Below are positions 6,822 to 37,947 of a DNA stretch of 64,000 bases, in pieces. The position numbers were made by a program, and so were the translations under genes. A model generated the notes under the pieces. The model was not told where the DNA came from. It saw nothing but the letters and a program-made list of their open reading frames with translations, and did not search any database. Each line of letters opens with the position of its first letter. Within the stretch, counting starts at the first letter, position 1. The stretch is from Amycolatopsis coloradensis (lineage in GTDB: Bacteria; Actinomycetota; Actinomycetes; Mycobacteriales; Pseudonocardiaceae): positions 403,009-467,008 of the forward strand of contig NZ_MQUQ01000004.1 of NCBI RefSeq assembly GCF_001953865.1. The letters run 5' to 3'.

Positions 6822-7952
6822 TCATTCTCCCGACTTTGGATGAAATGTGAACAAACGTTCCAACTGCCGCAACTGCGCGCGTTCCGGAGCGGCGCTCATC
6901 AGCTTTTCCCGCAACAGGCACGCCAGCGGATTGCGCCAGCCACCGATCCTGGCGAGCATCCGGGCCTGAGACCAGGCGGCACGAGCACGGCGTCGCCTGC
7001 GCCGTTCGTACTCCATCAACGCCGGCTCGATCCCCGCGCCGCCATCGAGACAATCGGCGAGCACCGCGGCGTCCTCGAACGCCTGCGAGGTGCCCTGCCC
7101 CATGTTCGGCATACTCGGATGCGCCGCGTCTCCCGCCAGCACCACCCTGGCCGCACTCCACGCGCGCAGTGGCTCGCTGTCGTAGATATCGGTCGCGGTG
7201 ATCTCTTCGCTCTCGGTCGCGGCCAGCAATTCCGGAATCGGCGCATGCCAGTTCTCGAAGAAACCGGGCGGCCTCGATTCGCTCGCACCTTCGACGGCGG
7301 GTGCCGAAGCGAACCAGTAAACCCGGCCGGCGGGCAGCCGCCAGATCCCGAATTGGTTCGGGCCGCCCATCGAGAGCACCCCGGGAAACGGCGGCAGCTC
7401 GAATTCGATCGTCGCACGCCAGACCGTGAAACCGGCGTAGCGGAGCGGCTCGGCCAGCCCGATGCCCGCCCGCACCGAAGACCGGATACCGTCGGCGCCG
7501 ACCACCAGGTCCGCGCGTGCTTCGGTGCCGTCGGCGAATTCGGCCACCGCGCGCCCGGCTTCCGTGCGCACACCGACGCAGCGGGCGCCGAAGACCGGGC
7601 GTTCGCCGAGCACTCCCGTGAGCGCGTCGAGCAAATCCTTGCGGTGCATACCCGCACCGCGTCCGCCGATCGTGTCCATGACCGGTCCGGACACCTCGTA
7701 GAGGGACCGGCCCGTCTTCGACCGCATCGACGTACCCGGCGCCGGCAACGCGCCCGCGCGCACCGCCGCCCCGGCGCCGATCGCGTCCAGCGCGCGAAGA
7801 CCGTTGGGCCACAAGGTAAGCCCGTTCCCGGATCGCGGCTCGGCCGCTCGCTCGCGGACCTCGACCCCGAATCCGGCCCGGCGCAGCGCGATCGCGGTGG
7901 CGAGCCCGGCGGGCCCGGCTCCGATGACCATCGCGGTGCGGTCCTGTGTCAC
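6822..7952 (-). CDS. FAD-dependent monooxygenase (PHBH fold)
   Basis: The 376-residue protein has the N-terminal FAD motif VIGAGPAGLATAIALRRAG, an RADLVVGADG segment (DG motif) in the middle and VVLAGDAAHPSMPNMGQG (GD motif) near residue 280, the three signatures of class A flavoprotein hydroxylases. GAGGAG lies 7 bases before the GTG start. These enzymes use NAD(P)H and oxygen to hydroxylate aromatic or polyketide substrates. It is divergent from an ABC exporter of the DrrAB type, so drug modification plus efflux is plausible but not shown. Confidence 0.88.
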   Translation of the reverse strand: MTQDRTAMVIGAGPAGLATAIALRRAGFGVEVRERAAEPRSGNGLTLWPNGLRALDAIGAGAAVRAGALPAPGTSMRSKTGRSLYEVSGPVMDTIGGRGAGMHRKDLLDALTGVLGERPVFGARCVGVRTEAGRAVAEFADGTEARADLVVGADGIRSSVRAGIGLAEPLRYAGFTVWRATIEFELPPFPGVLSMGGPNQFGIWRLPAGRVYWFASAPAVEGASESRPPGFFENWHAPIPELLAATESEEITATDIYDSEPLRAWSAARVVLAGDAAHPSMPNMGQGTSQAFEDAAVLADCLDGGAGIEPALMEYERRRRRRARAAWSQARMLARIGGWRNPLACLLREKLMSAAPERAQLRQLERLFTFHPKSGE

Positions 7953-8222
7953 GAAAATTCTCCTCGCGCCACGACGAAGCTAAGACCACCCATCCGGGTA
8001 ACGCTTCTCTCCCATTGCTGGAGAGAAAAAGACCGGAACAGCAACCTCGAAGAAGTTTCGAACGGAGGGTTCCGGATCACTTCGCCGACGCCGGAAAAGA
8101 TCGTTTTTGCCACTCAGGGGGCGGCTGTGCCGCACGATCCGGTTTCGGTACCTTGGTCATCCGCGTAGCGAGCCGGTTACTCAACGCTGAAGGCCCGCGT
8201 CGATTATTTTGGGAGTTTCGCC

Positions 8223-9203
8223 TTGTCTTCGAATACCGCTCTCGCGATAGAAACCACCGGACTGCTGAAGAAATTCGGCGACACCACCGCCGTGGACGGG
8301 GTCGACCTGGCCGTCCGGCCCGGAGTGGTGCACGGCCTGCTCGGCCCGAACGGCGCCGGCAAGACCACCACCATCAGGATGCTCGCCACCCTGCTGCGCC
8401 CAGACGCCGGTGCGGCACGGGTCTTCGGCCACGACGTGGCGACCGAACCGGACGCCGTGCGCAGTCGGGTCAGCCTCACCGGCCAGTTCGCCTCCGTGGA
8501 CGAGAACATCAGCGGCTACGAGAACCTGGTGCTGGTGGCGAGACTGCTCGGGCATTCCAGGGCGGCGGCCAAGGCAAGGGCGACCGAACTGATCGAGGCG
8601 TTCGACCTCACCGAGGCCGCGGGCAAGCAGGCGGCCAAGTACTCCGGTGGCATGCGCCGCAGGCTCGACATCGCGGCGAGCATCGTGGTCACCCCGGACC
8701 TGCTCTTCCTCGACGAGCCGACGGCGGGACTGGATCCGCGCAGCCGCAACCAGGTGTGGCATATCGTCCGTGAACTGGTCCGGGCCGGTACCACGATCCT
8801 GCTCACCACCCAGTACCTCGACGAGGCCGACCAACTCGCCGACCGCATCGCGGTGCTCGACCACGGCAGGACGATCGCGGAGGGCACCAGCGCCGAGCTG
8901 AAGTCCTCGCTCGGGTCCGGCGCGCTGCGGGTGCGGCTGAAGAACGAGGGCGACCGCGCCGAGGCCAAACGGCTGCTCGACATCGCGCTCGGCGTGCCGA
9001 TCATCCTCGACAACGAGCCCACAGCCCTGTCCGCGCAGGTGCCGGACCCGGACCGGGTGGCGCCCGCGCTGGCGATCCTGTCCAGCTCGGGAATCTCGGT
9101 CTCGGACTTCTCACTGGGCCAGCCGAGCCTCGACGAGGTGTTCCTCGCCCTCACCGGCCATCCCGCCGAAGACGACTCCGACAAGGAAGAGGCAGTCCGA
9201 TGA
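8223..9203 (+). CDS. ABC transporter ATP-binding protein, DrrA (daunorubicin-resistance) type
   Basis: The 326-residue protein has Walker [10 protein letters not shown], signature [10 protein letters not shown], Walker [13 protein letters not shown] and the H-loop replaced by Gln in [10 protein letters not shown], a known trait of DrrA-type ATPases. The C-terminal 90 residues match the DrrA-specific extension. The start is TTG with GGGAG about 9 bases before it. It overlaps the permease gene as ATGA. The pair should export a hydrophobic compound. Confidence 0.93.
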
Positions 9204-27188: not shown

Positions 27189-29648
27189 CTACATGCCGCG
27201 CGGGTGCAGGATCTCCTCGGCGACCAGCCCCAGCCAGTCGACGAAGAGCGCCAGCGCGGCGACCATGATGCCGAAGGTCAAGCTCAGGATCGGGCGGTAC
27301 AGCCCGATCCCGGCGACAAGCCCGCCGCCGAGACCGCCTGCGCCGATGAACGTCGCCAGCGTCGCGCTCGCGACGGTGAGCACCAGCGAGGTCCGGATCC
27401 CGGCGAGAATCACCGGGACGGCCAGTGGCAGTTCGATCCGCCACAGGATGGCCGTCTTGCCCATGCCCATGCCGCGCGCGGCGTCGACGAGGGTCGGGTC
27501 GACGCCGTCGAGCCCGACGATCGTGTTGCGCAACACCGGCAAGGTCGCGTAGACGACGAGCGCCGTCACCGCCGTCGCGGTGCCCGTGCCGATCCAGAGC
27601 GCGAGCAGCACGACGAGCCCGATCGACGGGATCGCCTGGCCGAGATTGCCCAGCCCCAGGCCGATCGGCCGGGCCCAGCGGGCGCCGGCGCGGGTGAGCA
27701 GGATGCCGAGCGGGAGGGCGATGGCGATCGTGCACACCGTCGAAATCAGGGTGAGCCGCAGGTGCGCGCCCAATTCGGTGAGGATCTCGTCGGCGTTGAG
27801 GAAACGCTGTTCGATCGAGTCGAGCGGGTGCGCACGCACGATCATGAAAAGCGCCAGCAAGGCGAGGGTCAGCAGGACCGGGCGCACCAGCAGGCCGATC
27901 CGGCGCCGACGAGGCCGCGCGGGCGCCCTGGGGTCCGGATCCGGCTCAGGCACCTCCTCGGCGTCCGCGATCGCGGGCGCCTCGTCGGCGGGCCTCTCGT
28001 CGGCGGGCCCGAGCGCCGCGACGAGGCTGGGCACGTCGCACACCCCCAGCGGCCGCGCGGGGCCGTCCCCGGTGACCGTGACCGCGGTGCTGCCGGTCCG
28101 CACCATCACGTCCAGCACGTCCCGCAGGGTGGCGTCGGGCCGGACCGGAGGCAGGCCGTCCGGCGCGGCCGCCGTCCGCAGTTCCAGGTCACACACCCGG
28201 ATCAGCGCGAGCCGCTTCAGGTTCCGCTTCGAGCCGACGAAGCTCGCGACGTAGTCGTCCACCGGCGCGGCGAGGATCGCCTGGGGCGTGTCGTACTGAG
28301 CGATCACCGACCGCGGCCGCAGCACGGCGATCCGGTCGCCGACCTTCACCGCCTCGTCGAAGTCGTGCGTGACGAACACGATCGTCTTGCGCACTTTCCG
28401 TTGCAGGCGAAGGAATTCGTCCTGCAGCCGGGCGCGCGTGATCGGGTCGGTGGAGCCGAACGGCTCGTCCATCAGCATGACCGGCGGGTCCGCCGCCATG
28501 GCCCGCGCCACACCGACGCGCTGCTGCTGACCGCCGGAAAGCTCACGCGGATACCGGACGCCGTGCTCGCGGCTCAGGCCGACGACGTCGAGCAACTCGC
28601 GCACACGGCCCGCGATGCGTCGCCGGGTCCAGCCGAGCAGCCGCGGCACCACGCCGATGTTGGCGTCCACCCGCAGGTGCGGGAAGAGCCCGACCTGCTG
28701 GATGACGTAGCCGGTGTTGCGCCGGTGTTCGTCGAGGTCGAGCGCCGACACGTCGGTGCCGCCGATCGTGACGACGCCCGCGGTGGGCTCGACGAGCCGG
28801 TTGATCATCCGCATGGTCGTCGTCTTGCCGCATCCCGACGGACCGGTCAGCACGACGATCTCGCCCGCGGGGATGCGCATCGTCAGACGTTCGACCGCCG
28901 GTACCGTTTGCCCGGGATAGAGCTTGCTGACGTCCCGCAGCTCGATCGTCTCACCGCCCATTCCGGCGGCTTCCCCCGACGTCGCCGGAGGCGCCGCTCG
29001 GCGGGCACGGGGACGTCGCCGGGTGGTCAGCTTGCCGACCACCACGAAGGCCAGGTCGAACAGCAGCGCCAGCACCATGATCCCGAGCGTTCCGGTGAGT
29101 ACCTGGTTCAGTGAGTTGACCGAGCCGAACCGGCCGAGCCCGTCGAAGATCTCGTTGCCGAGGCCGGGGCCCTTGACATACGCGCCGATGGCCGCGATAC
29201 CGATCGTGATCTGCGTCGAGACCCGGATGCCGGACAGGATCACCGGCCAGGCGAGCGGCAGGCGCACGCGAAACAGCAGCCGTACGCGGCCGAACCCCAT
29301 ACCGCGCGCCGCGTCCACCACGGCCGGATCGACGCCACGCAACCCGACGATCGTGTTGCGCGTGATCGGCAGAAGTGCGTAGAGCACCAGTGCGAACAGG
29401 ACGTTCGTCAGACCCAGCCCGAACGGGCCGATCAGGATGCCCAGCAGCGCGATCGACGGAACGGTCAGGAACGCCGCCGTCGTCGTGGTCGCCATCGCGC
29501 CGAGCCACTGTCGCCGGTAGGTGAGCAGGCCGATCGTCATGCCGACCAGCACGGCCAGTGCCATCGCCGCCAGGGTGAGATCCACGTGCAGGATCGCGTC
29601 GTTCACGACGTCGATCCAGTTCTCTCGGAGGTACTCCCACAGGCTCAG
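27189..29648 (-). CDS. Single-chain OpuC-type ABC importer: permease-ATPase-CBS-permease fusion
   Basis: One frame encodes all membrane and ATPase parts of an osmolyte importer, about 819 residues. Residues 15-210 are the first permease with the EAA loop GVDPAVVDAARGMGFG. Residues 233-480 are the ATPase: Walker A GPSGCGKTTT at 269, signature LSGGQQQR, Walker B MLMDEPFG. Residues 484-545 look like a CBS segment and 588-819 are a second permease with its own EAA loop GVDPTLVDAARGMGMG. These are normally three or four genes. The start is uncertain: GAGGAG lies 7 bases before a CTG at 29648; the first GTG (29765) has no Shine-Dalgarno and reads through non-coding-like sequence. Confidence 0.88.
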   Translation of the reverse strand: MSLWEYLRENWIDVVNDAILHVDLTLAAMALAVLVGMTIGLLTYRRQWLGAMATTTTAAFLTVPSIALLGILIGPFGLGLTNVLFALVLYALLPITRNTIVGLRGVDPAVVDAARGMGFGRVRLLFRVRLPLAWPVILSGIRVSTQITIGIAAIGAYVKGPGLGNEIFDGLGRFGSVNSLNQVLTGTLGIMVLALLFDLAFVVVGKLTTRRRPRARRAAPPATSGEAAGMGGETIELRDVSKLYPGQTVPAVERLTMRIPAGEIVVLTGPSGCGKTTTMRMINRLVEPTAGVVTIGGTDVSALDLDEHRRNTGYVIQQVGLFPHLRVDANIGVVPRLLGWTRRRIAGRVRELLDVVGLSREHGVRYPRELSGGQQQRVGVARAMAADPPVMLMDEPFGSTDPITRARLQDEFLRLQRKVRKTIVFVTHDFDEAVKVGDRIAVLRPRSVIAQYDTPQAILAAPVDDYVASFVGSKRNLKRLALIRVCDLELRTAAAPDGLPPVRPDATLRDVLDVMVRTGSTAVTVTGDGPARPLGVCDVPSLVAALGPADERPADEAPAIADAEEVPEPDPDPRAPARPRRRRIGLLVRPVLLTLALLALFMIVRAHPLDSIEQRFLNADEILTELGAHLRLTLISTVCTIAIALPLGILLTRAGARWARPIGLGLGNLGQAIPSIGLVVLLALWIGTGTATAVTALVVYATLPVLRNTIVGLDGVDPTLVDAARGMGMGKTAILWRIELPLAVPVILAGIRTSLVLTVASATLATFIGAGGLGGGLVAGIGLYRPILSLTFGIMVAALALFVDWLGLVAEEILHPRGM

Positions 29649-29864
29649 GGCGCCGCTCCTCGACGTCGCAGGGCAGAAAACAGCCGACCACGCCAGGTGC
29701 GGCCGGGTCTCAGCCCAACATGTCCGCGGGGCTCCTGTCCACAGCTCGACGTAAAGATTCGGCACGGCCCGACCCGATCGCGCCCCGGATCCTGGTCAGC
29801 CCGCGCACGCAACCTCGGACGCCCCGTCGTCCGCGCTTCGCGGCTCGACAGCACGACCGGCAAT

Positions 29865-31844: not shown

Positions 31845-31999
31845 GGTGCTCCTTTTCCGTGTACGCCTACTGAACGCCCTCCGGTTTCCCTTCACGGCCG
31901 AGAGCAAACCCACAAGAAGTTCATGGTTCGTTTCAACCGCGGGAGGCCGGGTATCCAGCGGGCGAACAGGAAAAGCGGACCCGCCCCAGGAGGCGCTTG

Positions 32000-32467
32000 A
32001 TGAGCACGATCACCAAGTCCGTCGACGTCGAGGCACCGGTCAGCGACGTTTACAACCAGTGGACTCAGTTCGCCGAGTTCCCGCGGTTCATGGAAGGCGT
32101 GGAGCGAGTCGAGCAGCGCGACGACACGCACACGCACTGGACCATCACCGTCGCCGGTGTTTCGAAGGAGTTCGACGCCACCATCACCGAACAGCACCCG
32201 GACGAACGGGTCGCATGGAAATCCGATGACGGCCCGAACCACGCCGGTGTCGTCACCGTGCACCGCATCGACCAGCACAAAACCAGGGTCACCGTCCAGA
32301 TGGACATCGACCCCGAGGGCTTCGTGGAGAACGTCGCCGACAAACTCGGCATCCTCGATCGGCGCGTCCAGGGTGACCTCGACCGGTTCAAGACTTTCCT
32401 CGAGAACCGGGACGGCGCCGAGACAGGCGCGTGGCGCGGCGACGTTCCTCGTCCAGGGCAGTCCTGA
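32000..32467 (+). CDS. SRPBCC (polyketide cyclase/COQ10-like) protein
   Basis: The ATG at 32000 follows AGGAGG with 6-base spacing. The 155-residue protein begins STITKSVDVEAPVSDVYNQW and FAEFPRFMEGVERVEQ, the standard cyclase/dehydrase-like opening, and ends in a long helix (ILDRRVQGDLDRFKTFLENR). It binds an unknown hydrophobic ligand. Such proteins recur in actinomycete stress loci. Confidence 0.85.
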   Translation: MSTITKSVDVEAPVSDVYNQWTQFAEFPRFMEGVERVEQRDDTHTHWTITVAGVSKEFDATITEQHPDERVAWKSDDGPNHAGVVTVHRIDQHKTRVTVQMDIDPEGFVENVADKLGILDRRVQGDLDRFKTFLENRDGAETGAWRGDVPRPGQS

Positions 32468-32558
32468 CCTTTTAGGACCACCTCACCAAAAGCAGGGTCG
32501 TTGCCCGACGACAAGGTGAGGTCGGCGGCCGGTTCTCACGATCCGGGCCGTTTGCACG

Positions 32559-32596
32559 GATGTGGCCGGTTCCGTACACCAGGAACCGGCCACATC
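32559..32596. terminator. Perfect 15-bp hairpin between convergent genes
   Basis: GATGTGGCCGGTTCC (32559-32573) pairs exactly with GGAACCGGCCACATC (32582-32596) around 8 bases. It lies between the converging SRPBCC and MLLE-like genes and probably terminates both. Confidence 0.75.
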
Positions 32597-32704
32597 GCTG
32601 CCGCACCCGACGAGGGGTGCCGCACAGAATTTCAGAGCGTGAAATTTTCGGGCTGGACGGTGTCACGCCGAAACTCTGACCGTCCACAGTGGCCTTTCGG
32701 CGGT

Positions 32705-32971
32705 TCAGGTAGCGCCCTGGCCGGTCGCATCCGGGGGCGCGGCCTGCGCGAGCTTCTTCGTCACCTCGTCCACCTTGCTTTTGAGAAGCAGGTCGTTCTC
32801 GAGCAGGCCGAGGAGTTCGCTCTCGTCGATCTCCAGGAGCTTCCCGGTGATCTGTCCCGCCAAGATGGGCTGATGGCCCTGCACGAGGGGGAACAACGCC
32901 TCACCCAGCCGCACCTTTTTCTGCGTGGGACTCAGCCCGGCGAGCGCTTCGGCAGACAATTCGGCGGACAC
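32705..32971 (-). CDS. Stand-alone MLLE (PABC)-like domain protein
   Basis: The 88-residue protein, from a GTG preceded by AAAGGG, looks like the C-terminal MLLE domain of eukaryotic poly(A)-binding protein. LGEALFPLVQ, LAGQITGKLLEIDESELL and KSKVDEVTKKL line up without gaps with the same segments of human PABPC1 as I remember it. MLLE is a five-helix bundle that binds PAM2 peptides; the core ITG-x-LLE-x-D-SELL is kept, with Lys where PABPC1 has Met. Nothing else is attached. It lies 68 bases after katG, beyond a terminator. Function in a bacterium is unknown; a protein-binding role is the natural guess. Confidence 0.8.
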   Translation of the reverse strand: MSAELSAEALAGLSPTQKKVRLGEALFPLVQGHQPILAGQITGKLLEIDESELLGLLENDLLLKSKVDEVTKKLAQAAPPDATGQGAT

Positions 32972-32990
32972 CGCACACCCTTTCCCTCAA

Positions 32991-33023
32991 GGCCCGGCCG
33001 ATCGCTCGTGGATCGGCCGGGCC
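32991..33023 (-). terminator. Terminator hairpin after katG
   Basis: GGCCCGGCCGATC (32991-33003) pairs exactly with GATCGGCCGGGCC (33011-33023) around a 7-base loop. It separates katG from the MLLE-like gene, so readthrough would be partial at most. Confidence 0.75.
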
Positions 33024-33039
33024 CGTTGGCGAAGCCGGC

Positions 33040-35316
<2,277 letters not shown>

Positions 35317-35339: not shown

Positions 35340-35765
35340 TCATTTCGGAACACTTTCGGTCGCGCACTCGGGGCAAACGCCCCAAAAGACGACCTCCGCC
35401 TCGTCGATCACATAGCCGTGGTCGTTCGATGCGGTCAGGCAGGGGGCGGGGCCGACCGCGCAGTCGACGTCCTCGATCGCGCCGCAGGAGCGGCAGACGA
35501 CATGGTGGTGGTTGTCTCCGACCCTCGACTCGTAGCGGGCGAGCGCGCCGGCGGGCTGGATGCGCCGCACCAGACCGGCTTCGGTGAGTGCCCGCAGGAC
35601 GTCGTAGATCGCCTGGTGGGACACAGTGGGGAGCTCGGATCTCACCCGCGCGATCACCGTTTCGGTATCGGCGTGCGGGTGTTCACGCAGGGCGGCGAGC
35701 ACGGCCAGCCGGGGCCGCGTCACGCGTAGCGAGACCGCCCGTAACTGTGACTCGAAGTTGGACAT
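35340..35765 (-). CDS. furA: Fur-family regulator FurA
   Basis: The protein is about 141 residues. The winged helix spans residues about 5-80 (RVTRPRLAVLAALREHPHAD, VSHQAIYDVLRALTEAG). HHHVVCRSCGAIEDV supplies metal ligands and VCPEC near the end forms the second Cys pair of a structural zinc site. Together with katG downstream this is the classical furA-katG oxidative-stress operon of actinomycetes. ATG 35765 or GTG 35771 may be the start; neither has a clear Shine-Dalgarno. Confidence 0.93.
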   Translation of the reverse strand: MSNFESQLRAVSLRVTRPRLAVLAALREHPHADTETVIARVRSELPTVSHQAIYDVLRALTEAGLVRRIQPAGALARYESRVGDNHHHVVCRSCGAIEDVDCAVGPAPCLTASNDHGYVIDEAEVVFWGVCPECATESVPK

Positions 35766-35777
35766 CGCCACCGACGA

Positions 35778-35864: not shown

Positions 35865-36097
35865 CTACTGGGACAGACGGCTCGCCAGCAGCCGCTTGCC
35901 TTGTTCGGCGCCCTTGCGGCTCTCCGCCTGGGCACGGTGGAAGAAGCCGGCCAGTTCATCGTCTCCGTCGCGTTCCGCGTCCTTCGCGTAGTTTCCATCC
36001 GCAGCGCGTTGGAGAGGCAGGCTTCGGTGAACCAGATGAGGTTGTAGTGCTTGTCCTTCGTGCCCGTGACTTCGCCGGTCTCGGAGTTCGTCACCAT
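35865..36097 (-). pseudogene. Small helical protein gene interrupted by a one-base frameshift
   Basis: ATG 36097 has AAGGGAG before it. The first frame gives VTNSETGEVTGTKDKHYNLI and ACLSNALRMET, then falls into nonsense. Shifting one base near 35990 continues YAKDAERDGDDELAGFFHRA and ESRKGAEQGKRLLASRLSQ to a stop at 35865. Together they form one 77-residue, two-helix protein, so one base is missing, either a real mutation or a read error. The helical pattern is faintly ferritin-like; I do not recognise a family. Confidence 0.65.
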
Positions 36098-36283: not shown

Positions 36284-37024
36284 TCACAGCGCCAGATCCG
36301 GATCCTCGGTGACCGAACGCAGCGCGGTCACGGTCGGGTGCCCTTCGGCCAGCAGCCGGGCGTCGCTGCCCGGCGGCAATTCGCCCTCCACGGTCACGGT
36401 GGTGAGAGTGAACGTGCCGCTCTCGTCGTTCTGGACATGGCTGCGCACGGACCCGAACTCGGCCAGCGGCGCGCGCTGCGGCGGACCCGCCTCGGCACGG
36501 TCGGGGACGTTGAGGTTCAGTGCCGTCCCCTCCGGCAGGCCCGCGAGCTGATCGAACATCTTCGCGGCGACGGCGACCGCGGTGTCCCAATGCGGCCGGG
36601 GGCGGGGATCCAATCCCACGTCGAGGGAGACCGCGAGGCTCCGCGCCCCGTTGATCGCCGCGGTGAGTGCCGCGCCGACGGTGCCGGAGTGCAGGACCGC
36701 GCGGCCGACGTTCGCCCCGCGGTTCACCCCCGACAGCACGACGTCCGGTGGTTCACCGAACGCTCCCTGCGCGGCAGCCAACGCGATCAGGCCGGGATGC
36801 GCGGCGACGGCATACGCCTGCACACCGGGGACTTCGGGCAGTTCCCGCCGCTCGACCGTCACGCGGCCTGCCTCGCCGGCGCCGGACAATCCCGCGCTCG
36901 TGCCGCTCGACTCCTCGGCAGGCGCGGCGATCACCACGGTCCAGCCGTGTTCCACGGCGCCGCGCGCGAGCGCGGCCAGCCCGGGTGCGTCGATGCCGTC
37001 GTCATTGGTGATCAGCGCACGCAT
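36284..37024 (-). CDS. surE: SurE-like 5'/3'-nucleotidase
   Basis: The 246-residue protein opens with the SurE signature MRALITNDDGIDAPGLAALA, which binds the metal through Asp-Asp, and continues VVIAAPAEESSGTSAG and VLSGVNRGANVGRAVLHSGT, both diagnostic. SurE removes phosphate from nucleoside monophosphates and sometimes polyphosphate. Its ATG shares one base with the stop of the PfkB kinase gene (TGATG), so the pair is coupled. Confidence 0.92.
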   Translation of the reverse strand: MRALITNDDGIDAPGLAALARGAVEHGWTVVIAAPAEESSGTSAGLSGAGEAGRVTVERRELPEVPGVQAYAVAAHPGLIALAAAQGAFGEPPDVVLSGVNRGANVGRAVLHSGTVGAALTAAINGARSLAVSLDVGLDPRPRPHWDTAVAVAAKMFDQLAGLPEGTALNLNVPDRAEAGPPQRAPLAEFGSVRSHVQNDESGTFTLTTVTVEGELPPGSDARLLAEGHPTVTALRSVTEDPDLAL

Positions 37025-37947
37025 CAGGATGCCTCCCATGGCTTCAACCGCACTCGTCCGGCGAGTTCCCGCACCGCCTCGTCGCTCCCCGAGCCGAGGC
37101 CGTGCCTGGTCACGTTGACCGCTCCCGCGGCGGCCCCCAGGATCAGCGCCTCTTCCAGCGACTTGCCCTGCGCCAGGCCGGCCGCGAGTCCGGCGGTCAT
37201 CGAGTCGCCGCCGCCGCGGGTGTCCACCGGCGTCAGGTCGGGCGATTCCACCAGGACCAGCTTCCCCTCTACGAGGGCGAGCGTTTCCTCGGCCGCCCGG
37301 GACACGACGATCGCCCGGGCACCGCACGAAGCCAGCTCACGACATCCCGCCGCGAGATCGGCCGGCGAGTCCGAATCGGCGAGGCCGTCGGCGACCATCT
37401 CTTCGTGGCTGACCTTGATCACCGCGGGCCTGCCCTCGATCGCCTTGGCCAGCCGCTCCCCGGAAAGATCCACCACCACCTCGGTGCCCTGGGCGCCGAG
37501 GTCGCGAGCGAGCCGTTCGTACATCGAATGAGGCACCGGCACGTCGTCCTCGTCCGGGCCGCTGAGGATGGCGACCTCCGCACGCAGCCCCTGCACCAGG
37601 GTCAGTTCGTAGAGATCGTCCAGCTCATGCCGTGACAACGCGTCGGCGGGCATCCGCACGACCTCGTCGCGGTGACCGTCCCGTCGATCGTGCACGTAGG
37701 CGCCGTTGCGTGCGGCGACCTCCCTGACCTCGACGTCGACACCGATCAGATGCCGCAGTACCCGTCCGGTCTCGCCGCCGAGCGCGCAACACAACATCGC
37801 CCGCGCGCCGAGCGCGTCGATCATCCGCGACTGCCACACTCCCTGCCCGCCCGCGTGCACGTGGACGTCGGGCACACCCTCGATTTCTTCCACCGTCACC
37901 GTCAACTGCGGAGACGGCGCGAACACCGCCACTCGACCATCAGCCAT
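37024..37947 (-). CDS. PfkB-family carbohydrate kinase
   Basis: The 307-residue protein starts like a 1-phosphofructokinase (VAVFAPSPQLTVTVEEIEGV, then HAGGQGVWQSRMIDALGA) and ends with the ATP/anion-hole motif DTRGGGDSMTAGLAAGL, where the family normally has GAGD; the catalytic Asp is kept. It phosphorylates a sugar, sugar phosphate or nucleoside. It is cotranscribed with surE and divergent from phosphoketolase, hinting at a shared sugar-phosphate shunt. Confidence 0.88.
   Translation of the reverse strand: MADGRVAVFAPSPQLTVTVEEIEGVPDVHVHAGGQGVWQSRMIDALGARAMLCCALGGETGRVLRHLIGVDVEVREVAARNGAYVHDRRDGHRDEVVRMPADALSRHELDDLYELTLVQGLRAEVAILSGPDEDDVPVPHSMYERLARDLGAQGTEVVVDLSGERLAKAIEGRPAVIKVSHEEMVADGLADSDSPADLAAGCRELASCGARAIVVSRAAEETLALVEGKLVLVESPDLTPVDTRGGGDSMTAGLAAGLAQGKSLEEALILGAAAGAVNVTRHGLGSGSDEAVRELAGRVRLKPWEAS

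Follow-up and report, generated by a model that had tools for sequence, protein, structure and literature searches.

A stand-alone MLLE (PABC) domain gene in part of the genus Amycolatopsis and its probable eukaryotic origin

The MLLE (PABC) domain of the poly(A)-binding protein PABPC1 binds PAM2 peptides through residues that are named in PMC2854688, where the accessible text assigns Q560, G563, E564, F567, G579, T582, and L586 to the end that holds the Phe residue. In the eukaryotic system this Phe is the main binding determinant of PAM2, according to the accessible parts of PMC2854688 and PMC9249222. Besides PABPC1, the portion of the latter 2022 paper that was available names only UBR5 and fungal Rrm4 as MLLE proteins, and its species list of solved members spans animals, plants, fungi, and kinetoplastids. 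A literature search on MLLE or PABP in bacteria, with most subscription papers outside its scope, returned no bacterial MLLE in titles or abstract openings among the matches listed. Here we analyzed a 64,000-nucleotide stretch of the Amycolatopsis coloradensis genome (hereafter the window; assembly GCF_001953865.1, contig NZ_MQUQ01000004.1), which contains a small gene for a protein of this kind. Coordinates of the locus refer to positions in the window (Table 1).

By every sequence test run, the window gene encodes a stand-alone MLLE/PABC domain, which is what the initial annotation had proposed from the letters alone. The profile search that it had suggested gave a significant result, with MLLE (PF00658) as the only Pfam match of the 88-residue protein (E = 1.7e-18, 66.8 bits against a cut-off of 27), covering residues 10–70 and profile positions 2–62 of 66. 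The best PDB matches were human PABPC1 MLLE chains (E = 2e-17), aligned without gaps over residues 3–75 with 40 of 73 positions identical. The segments LGEALFPLVQ, LAGQITGKLLEIDESELL, and KSKVDE lay in this ungapped alignment, as the initial annotation had stated. The Smith-Waterman score against the human MLLE was 179, while 2000 shuffles of the window protein reached at most 55, which excludes a chance likeness. The NCBIfam model of the human-type poly(A)-binding protein (TIGR01628) was matched with 67.3 bits at profile positions 524–591 of 595 only; its whole-protein cut-off of 497.1 bits was not reached by this protein of 88 residues, which has no RNA-recognition motifs. The central motif KITGMLLE reads QITGKLLE in the window protein (six of eight identical) and is eroded in its relatives, for example to HVTKKLLE. 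Lower PDB matches were 8s6u (45.7 bits), wheat 2dyd (43.5), 1nmr (40.7), 1i2t of hyd/UBR5 (37.9), 6h7a (25.5), and yeast 1ifw (18.2). Given the ungapped homology to solved structures, the window protein would be expected to fold as a helical bundle of the five-helix type. Its codon use is host-like, as had also been noted: GC3 was 0.84, and on a codon index built from seven neighboring genes 8 of 52 equal-length neighbor pieces scored below the MLLE gene.

Table 1. Features of the MLLE locus in the window.
Feature	Position	Strand	Basis
SRPBCC/polyketide-cyclase-like gene	31997..32467	+	PF03364 E=1.5e-22
Stand-alone MLLE (PABC) protein, 88 aa, GTG start	32705..32971	-	ORF; PF00658; PABPC1 MLLE match
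Ribosome-binding-like stretch GAGGGAAAGGG, 6 bases before the MLLE GTG start	32978..32988	-	sequence read; putative assignment
Strong hairpin with perfect 13-base arms, in the katG–MLLE spacer	32991..33023	-	fold
katG, catalase-peroxidase (presumed), directly upstream of the MLLE gene	33040..35316	-	ORF
furA-like regulator (presumed)	35340..35771	-	ORF
surE	36284..37024	-	PF01975 E=6.6e-41
pfkB-family sugar kinase, adjoins surE	37024..37947	-	PF00294 E=1.5e-27

Upstream of the MLLE gene lie two ORFs that we take to be katG and a furA-like gene, as named in the initial annotation. The ORF order in the window agrees with the placement of the MLLE gene downstream of furA-katG that was given there. 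The spacing between katG and the MLLE gene is 68 bases and contains a hairpin, whose fold (32972–33042, minus strand) had an energy of -41.9 kcal/mol and a z of -4.0. This hairpin is possibly a partial terminator lacking a T run; a terminator scan of 32400–33200 did not report it, and a promoter scan of the same region found none. The interval between pfkB-surE (36284–37947) and the MLLE gene is occupied by a short, apparently broken gene and by furA and katG, and all of these genes are on the minus strand. The first 35 and last 42 residues of that short gene (35868–36097, minus strand) are in different frames; its reading frame therefore appears interrupted, whether by a frameshift or by an error in sequencing. 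The SRPBCC-like gene is a recurrent neighbor: copies of 94% identity lie next to a damaged MLLE copy at one locus (L013) and next to pfkB at another (L060). Elsewhere in the window, a single 858-residue ORF (27189–29765, minus strand) comprises two permease stretches and an ABC ATPase beside an OpuAC-type binding protein, and is read from its sequence as a fused glycine-betaine-type transporter.

Within the actinobacteria searched, PF00658 was restricted to one genus. It was found in 5 of 80 Amycolatopsis genomes, in 5 of 390 genomes (1 of 46 genera) of the family set, and in 3 of 397 genomes (1 of 85 genera, all Amycolatopsis) of the order sample. In the class sample (1/394 genomes, 1/138 genera) and the phylum sample (1/396 genomes, 1/237 genera) the only match was the window genome itself. 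The five sets overlap, and those for order, class, and phylum are samples; in all of them, no match was found outside Amycolatopsis, and 14 control genomes had none either. The window genome (9.05 Mb, 57 contigs) has one MLLE copy, and the other carriers include A. thailandensis, A. regifaucium, and A. oliviviridis. A scan of genome contigs with a narrow peptide pattern from the window protein alone gave 468 pattern matches and no relative. A second scan, with an alignment of the bacterial proteins, recovered five loci in three named Amycolatopsis species. No MLLE was matched in plasmids, phages (E up to 1e-5), or viral contigs, and there is thus no sign of a mobile carrier.

Damaged copies or remnants of the gene were present in three genomes, namely A. 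thailandensis, G025, and G073. Of the three copies in A. thailandensis, one is intact and lies between unrelated genes; the other two are truncated, and one of these sits behind a surE remnant. When the 80 genomes of the genus were searched with the bacterial alignment and matches up to E = 0.1 were accepted, 11 genomes matched. Besides the five carriers, these included G025 and G073, with clear C-terminal remnants (E about 1e-11; L109 near 8120–8230 and L112 near 7551–7670, respectively), and G025 additionally has two weak N-terminal pieces. The weak matches in G009, G021, G024, and G077 (E 0.01–0.07) were taken as chance. The remnants of G025 and G073 start at nearly equal profile positions (47 and 43 of 84), as if breakage had occurred near a preferred site. 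Pieces of a second MLLE-like type (PEQREFWFGRAL) were also seen, at L106 and L108 in G025 and at about 700–1166 of L012 in G074; after PEQREFWFGRAL, another frame carries a stretch with GMLLE, and both G025 copies of this type are broken. The G025 copies are 95% identical to each other across 125 bases, and one of the two aligns with L012 for 322 bases at 84% identity. The profile matches behind this second type were weak (E 0.006 and 0.017).

The core of the window protein was 56–57% identical to the human MLLE, compared with 51–53% between human and wheat and 55% between human and 8s6u. Its identity to the intact Amycolatopsis relatives was 50–62% in this alignment, and no other bacterial copy resembled the human domain as closely. 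The bacterial rows grouped as one clade in all three trees, each time in 200 of 200 bootstrap replicates. The branch joining this clade to human PABPC1 was weakly supported (79/80 in one tree, 84/80 in the last tree), and without yeast the tree only split bacteria from eukaryotes and the PABPC1 placement was not recovered. The last tree comprised five eukaryotic MLLE sequences and the bacterial rows, with a rooting that was not fixed by the data. The phylogeny with eukaryotic MLLEs, a check named at the outset, thus placed the bacterial clade apart from the five eukaryotic domains, and since the intact bacterial genes form one such clade, there was probably one old capture with later losses. 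A transfer from a eukaryote to an ancestor within Amycolatopsis is very probably the direction, as the simplest reading of one bacterial genus against a domain solved from animals, plants, fungi, and kinetoplastids (species list of PMC9249222). The initial annotation had left the choice between a transfer from a eukaryote and an unrecognized bacterial family; of these the transfer is now better supported, because only one genus was found within the actinobacterial samples searched, and the bacterial family is correspondingly disfavored.

The position of the gene in the relatives differs from that in the window. Directly behind surE, the loci of G042, G033, and G063 (L009, L010, and L011) have an MLLE frame that overlaps the surE stop if the first start codon is used, and the first MLLE ATG follows that stop by about 8 bases; each of the three genomes has pfkB immediately ahead of surE. 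The early description of a free copy downstream of furA-katG holds for the window, but the gene belongs to a small family of the genus that sits behind surE in three relatives. SurE was matched in 28 of 80 genomes of the genus. Among the 16 genomes with the closest surE (at least 70% identity), the MLLE gene was directly behind surE in 3 and absent there in 12, and in the window genome it was 3.3 kb from surE. In one of the 12, G052, a 27-base piece of the MLLE leader with 93% identity is still present behind surE, a sign of loss. Mapped on the SurE tree, the occurrence of MLLE takes three changes, which would fit one gain plus two losses; the PfkB+SurE tree (12 genomes) requires four, so that a single gain is not proved by these trees.

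To describe selection on the gene, Nei-Gojobori dN/dS was calculated for all 10 pairs of the five intact genes. The values were 0.20–0.64, and nine of them were below 0.45, indicating purifying selection. Values for surE (0.17–0.21) and pfkB (0.11–0.16), from four genomes each, were lower, and selection on MLLE is looser than on both. In 8 of the 10 pairs, amino-acid identity surpassed the highest value obtained when the same base changes were placed at random 300 times; this neutral control was not exceeded in G000–G033 and G033–G063. The ORFs are intact in five genomes although the synonymous distance reaches about 1. From the dN/dS range and the eight pairs that exceeded the neutral control, the gene is probably translated and selected, if loosely, in most of these lineages.

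At the Phe end of the peptide pocket, the window protein retains six of the seven residues named in the accessible text of PMC2854688 (G563, E564, F567, G579, T582, and L586), with Q560 replaced by V. Of the ten Leu-end residues named there, five are kept (L585, I588, K606, E609, and L614) and five are changed (K580Q, M584K, A610V, V613K, and H617A). In the four other intact bacterial proteins, G563, T582, and L586 are retained but E564 and F567 are lost, as is G579 in three of them; T582, L585, and L586 are kept in all five intact copies. With the Phe-end residues largely kept in the window protein, and with Phe as the main determinant of binding in eukaryotes, a peptide-binding adaptor with drifted specificity is plausible.

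The search for a host PAM2 partner, which had been proposed at the start, did not point to one. The PAM2 motif reads xxLNxxAxEFxP, and the canonical pattern L-[N/S]-x-x-A-x-E-F-x-P, written with common codons only, had no match in 10 genomes. A looser pattern matched in all ten and was no commoner with MLLE: the five MLLE genomes gave 33 matches, and the five that lacked a PF00658 match, of which one (G025) holds MLLE remnants, gave 42. These matches were counted irrespective of reading frame, and several near-identical sites recur in both groups. A backwards-pattern control gave 8 matches in all 10 genomes together, the excess over it being common to both groups. In the six frames of the window and of seven loci, PAM2-like peptides were scattered, and none lay in surE or pfkB frames by position.

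We propose a single capture, in which an ancestor of part of Amycolatopsis took up the C-terminal domain of a eukaryotic PABP. The domain would have settled behind pfkB-surE as a free-standing gene, with further copies arising later at a few other sites and with loss of the gene in many descendant lineages. In the lineages that retain it, the gene would probably give a small soluble cytoplasmic protein that acts as a peptide-binding adaptor. Its conserved Gly/Thr/Leu pocket may hold a hydrophobic, Phe-like residue in the unstructured tail of some bacterial protein, and its specificity would have drifted from PAM2. Taken whole, from the single capture to the retained adaptor, this account is in our judgment moderately favored. 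A more specific version, in which part of Amycolatopsis domesticated the domain as a free adaptor that is linked to the pfkB-surE operon and recognizes its own bacterial peptide motif, is put forward tentatively, as a possibility on the lesser side of even.

The chief rival to the adaptor reading is a tolerated relic on its way out, that is, a captured eukaryotic domain that folds and is tolerated, has no important function, and is decaying and already lost in many lineages. The gene is indeed rare and patchy (5 of 80 genomes), two of the three A. thailandensis copies are cut short, G025 and G073 have remnants only, G052 has its 27-base leader remnant, dN/dS rises to 0.64, and the pattern scans of 10 genomes found no PAM2 partner. 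However, dN/dS was below 1 in every one of the 10 pairs and below 0.45 in nine, five genomes kept the ORF while synonymous distance reached about 1, and T582, L585, and L586 persist in all five intact copies. We consider a relic rather unlikely, though it is the alternative that we take most seriously.

The remaining explanations are far less probable. An old bacterial family, which would be the source or sister of the eukaryotic domain through vertical descent or bacteria-to-eukaryote transfer, would fit a small tree whose rooting is not fixed by the data and a profile search that covered samples of the window's own phylum and 14 control genomes. No other genus appeared in the family set, in the order, class, and phylum samples, or in those controls, and the solved eukaryotic members spread over animals, plants, fungi, and kinetoplastids (PMC9249222, species list), which makes such a family very improbable. 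Equally hard to favor is a secreted PABP mimic that binds PAM2 proteins of a eukaryote: the close likeness to animal PABPC1 and the retained Phe pocket would suit it, but the N-terminus (MSAELSAEAL...) does not look secretion-like when judged by eye, three relatives have the gene packed closely behind surE, and half of the named Leu-side residues are changed. Contamination or an assembly error that placed a eukaryotic piece in a bacterial contig was rejected as having practically no chance of being true, being refuted by the four other genomes that carry relatives at 48–62% identity, one of which consists of a single 8.0 Mb contig; the host-like codon use and the 542 kb contig also argue against it.

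MLLE is a domain known from eukaryotic proteins. A free bacterial copy with a probable eukaryotic parent, which selection has maintained in several species while others lack it or have it damaged, offers a small-scale example of the passage of a eukaryotic protein-interaction module into a bacterium. At 88 residues, whether the protein binds peptides, and which, is directly testable. Among known systems, it is closest to the MLLE of PABPC1 (PF00658; PDB 3ktp, 1jgn), with 40 identities in a 73-residue ungapped alignment that takes in the N-terminal helix region, and with six of the seven named Phe-end residues. Unlike PABPC1, it is free-standing, bacterial, and without RNA-recognition motifs, it reads QITGKLLE for KITGMLLE, and half of the named Leu-side residues differ. 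The MLLE of UBR5/hyd (PDB 3ntw, 1i2t) belongs to the same family, with about 40% core identity and 37.9 bits for 1i2t. It scores below PABPC1 (66 bits), however, and its match starts at residue 20–21, after the first helix region, full-length chains included, whereas the PABPC1 match includes the helix before the LGE motif of the window protein. The UBR5 domain is also part of a roughly 2800-residue enzyme, in contrast to the free-standing window MLLE. To PDB chain 7pze, which we take to be Rrm4, the window protein scored only 14.3 bits (E = 0.47), and the Rrm4 MLLE again lies within a larger protein. Fungal Rrm4 MLLEs are nevertheless alike in one respect, in that their specificity drifted to PAM2-like peptides (accessible text of PMC9249222), and they may serve as a model for a changed specificity in Amycolatopsis. 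Set against these systems, the bacterial gene represents a new setting for a known domain rather than a new kind of domain.
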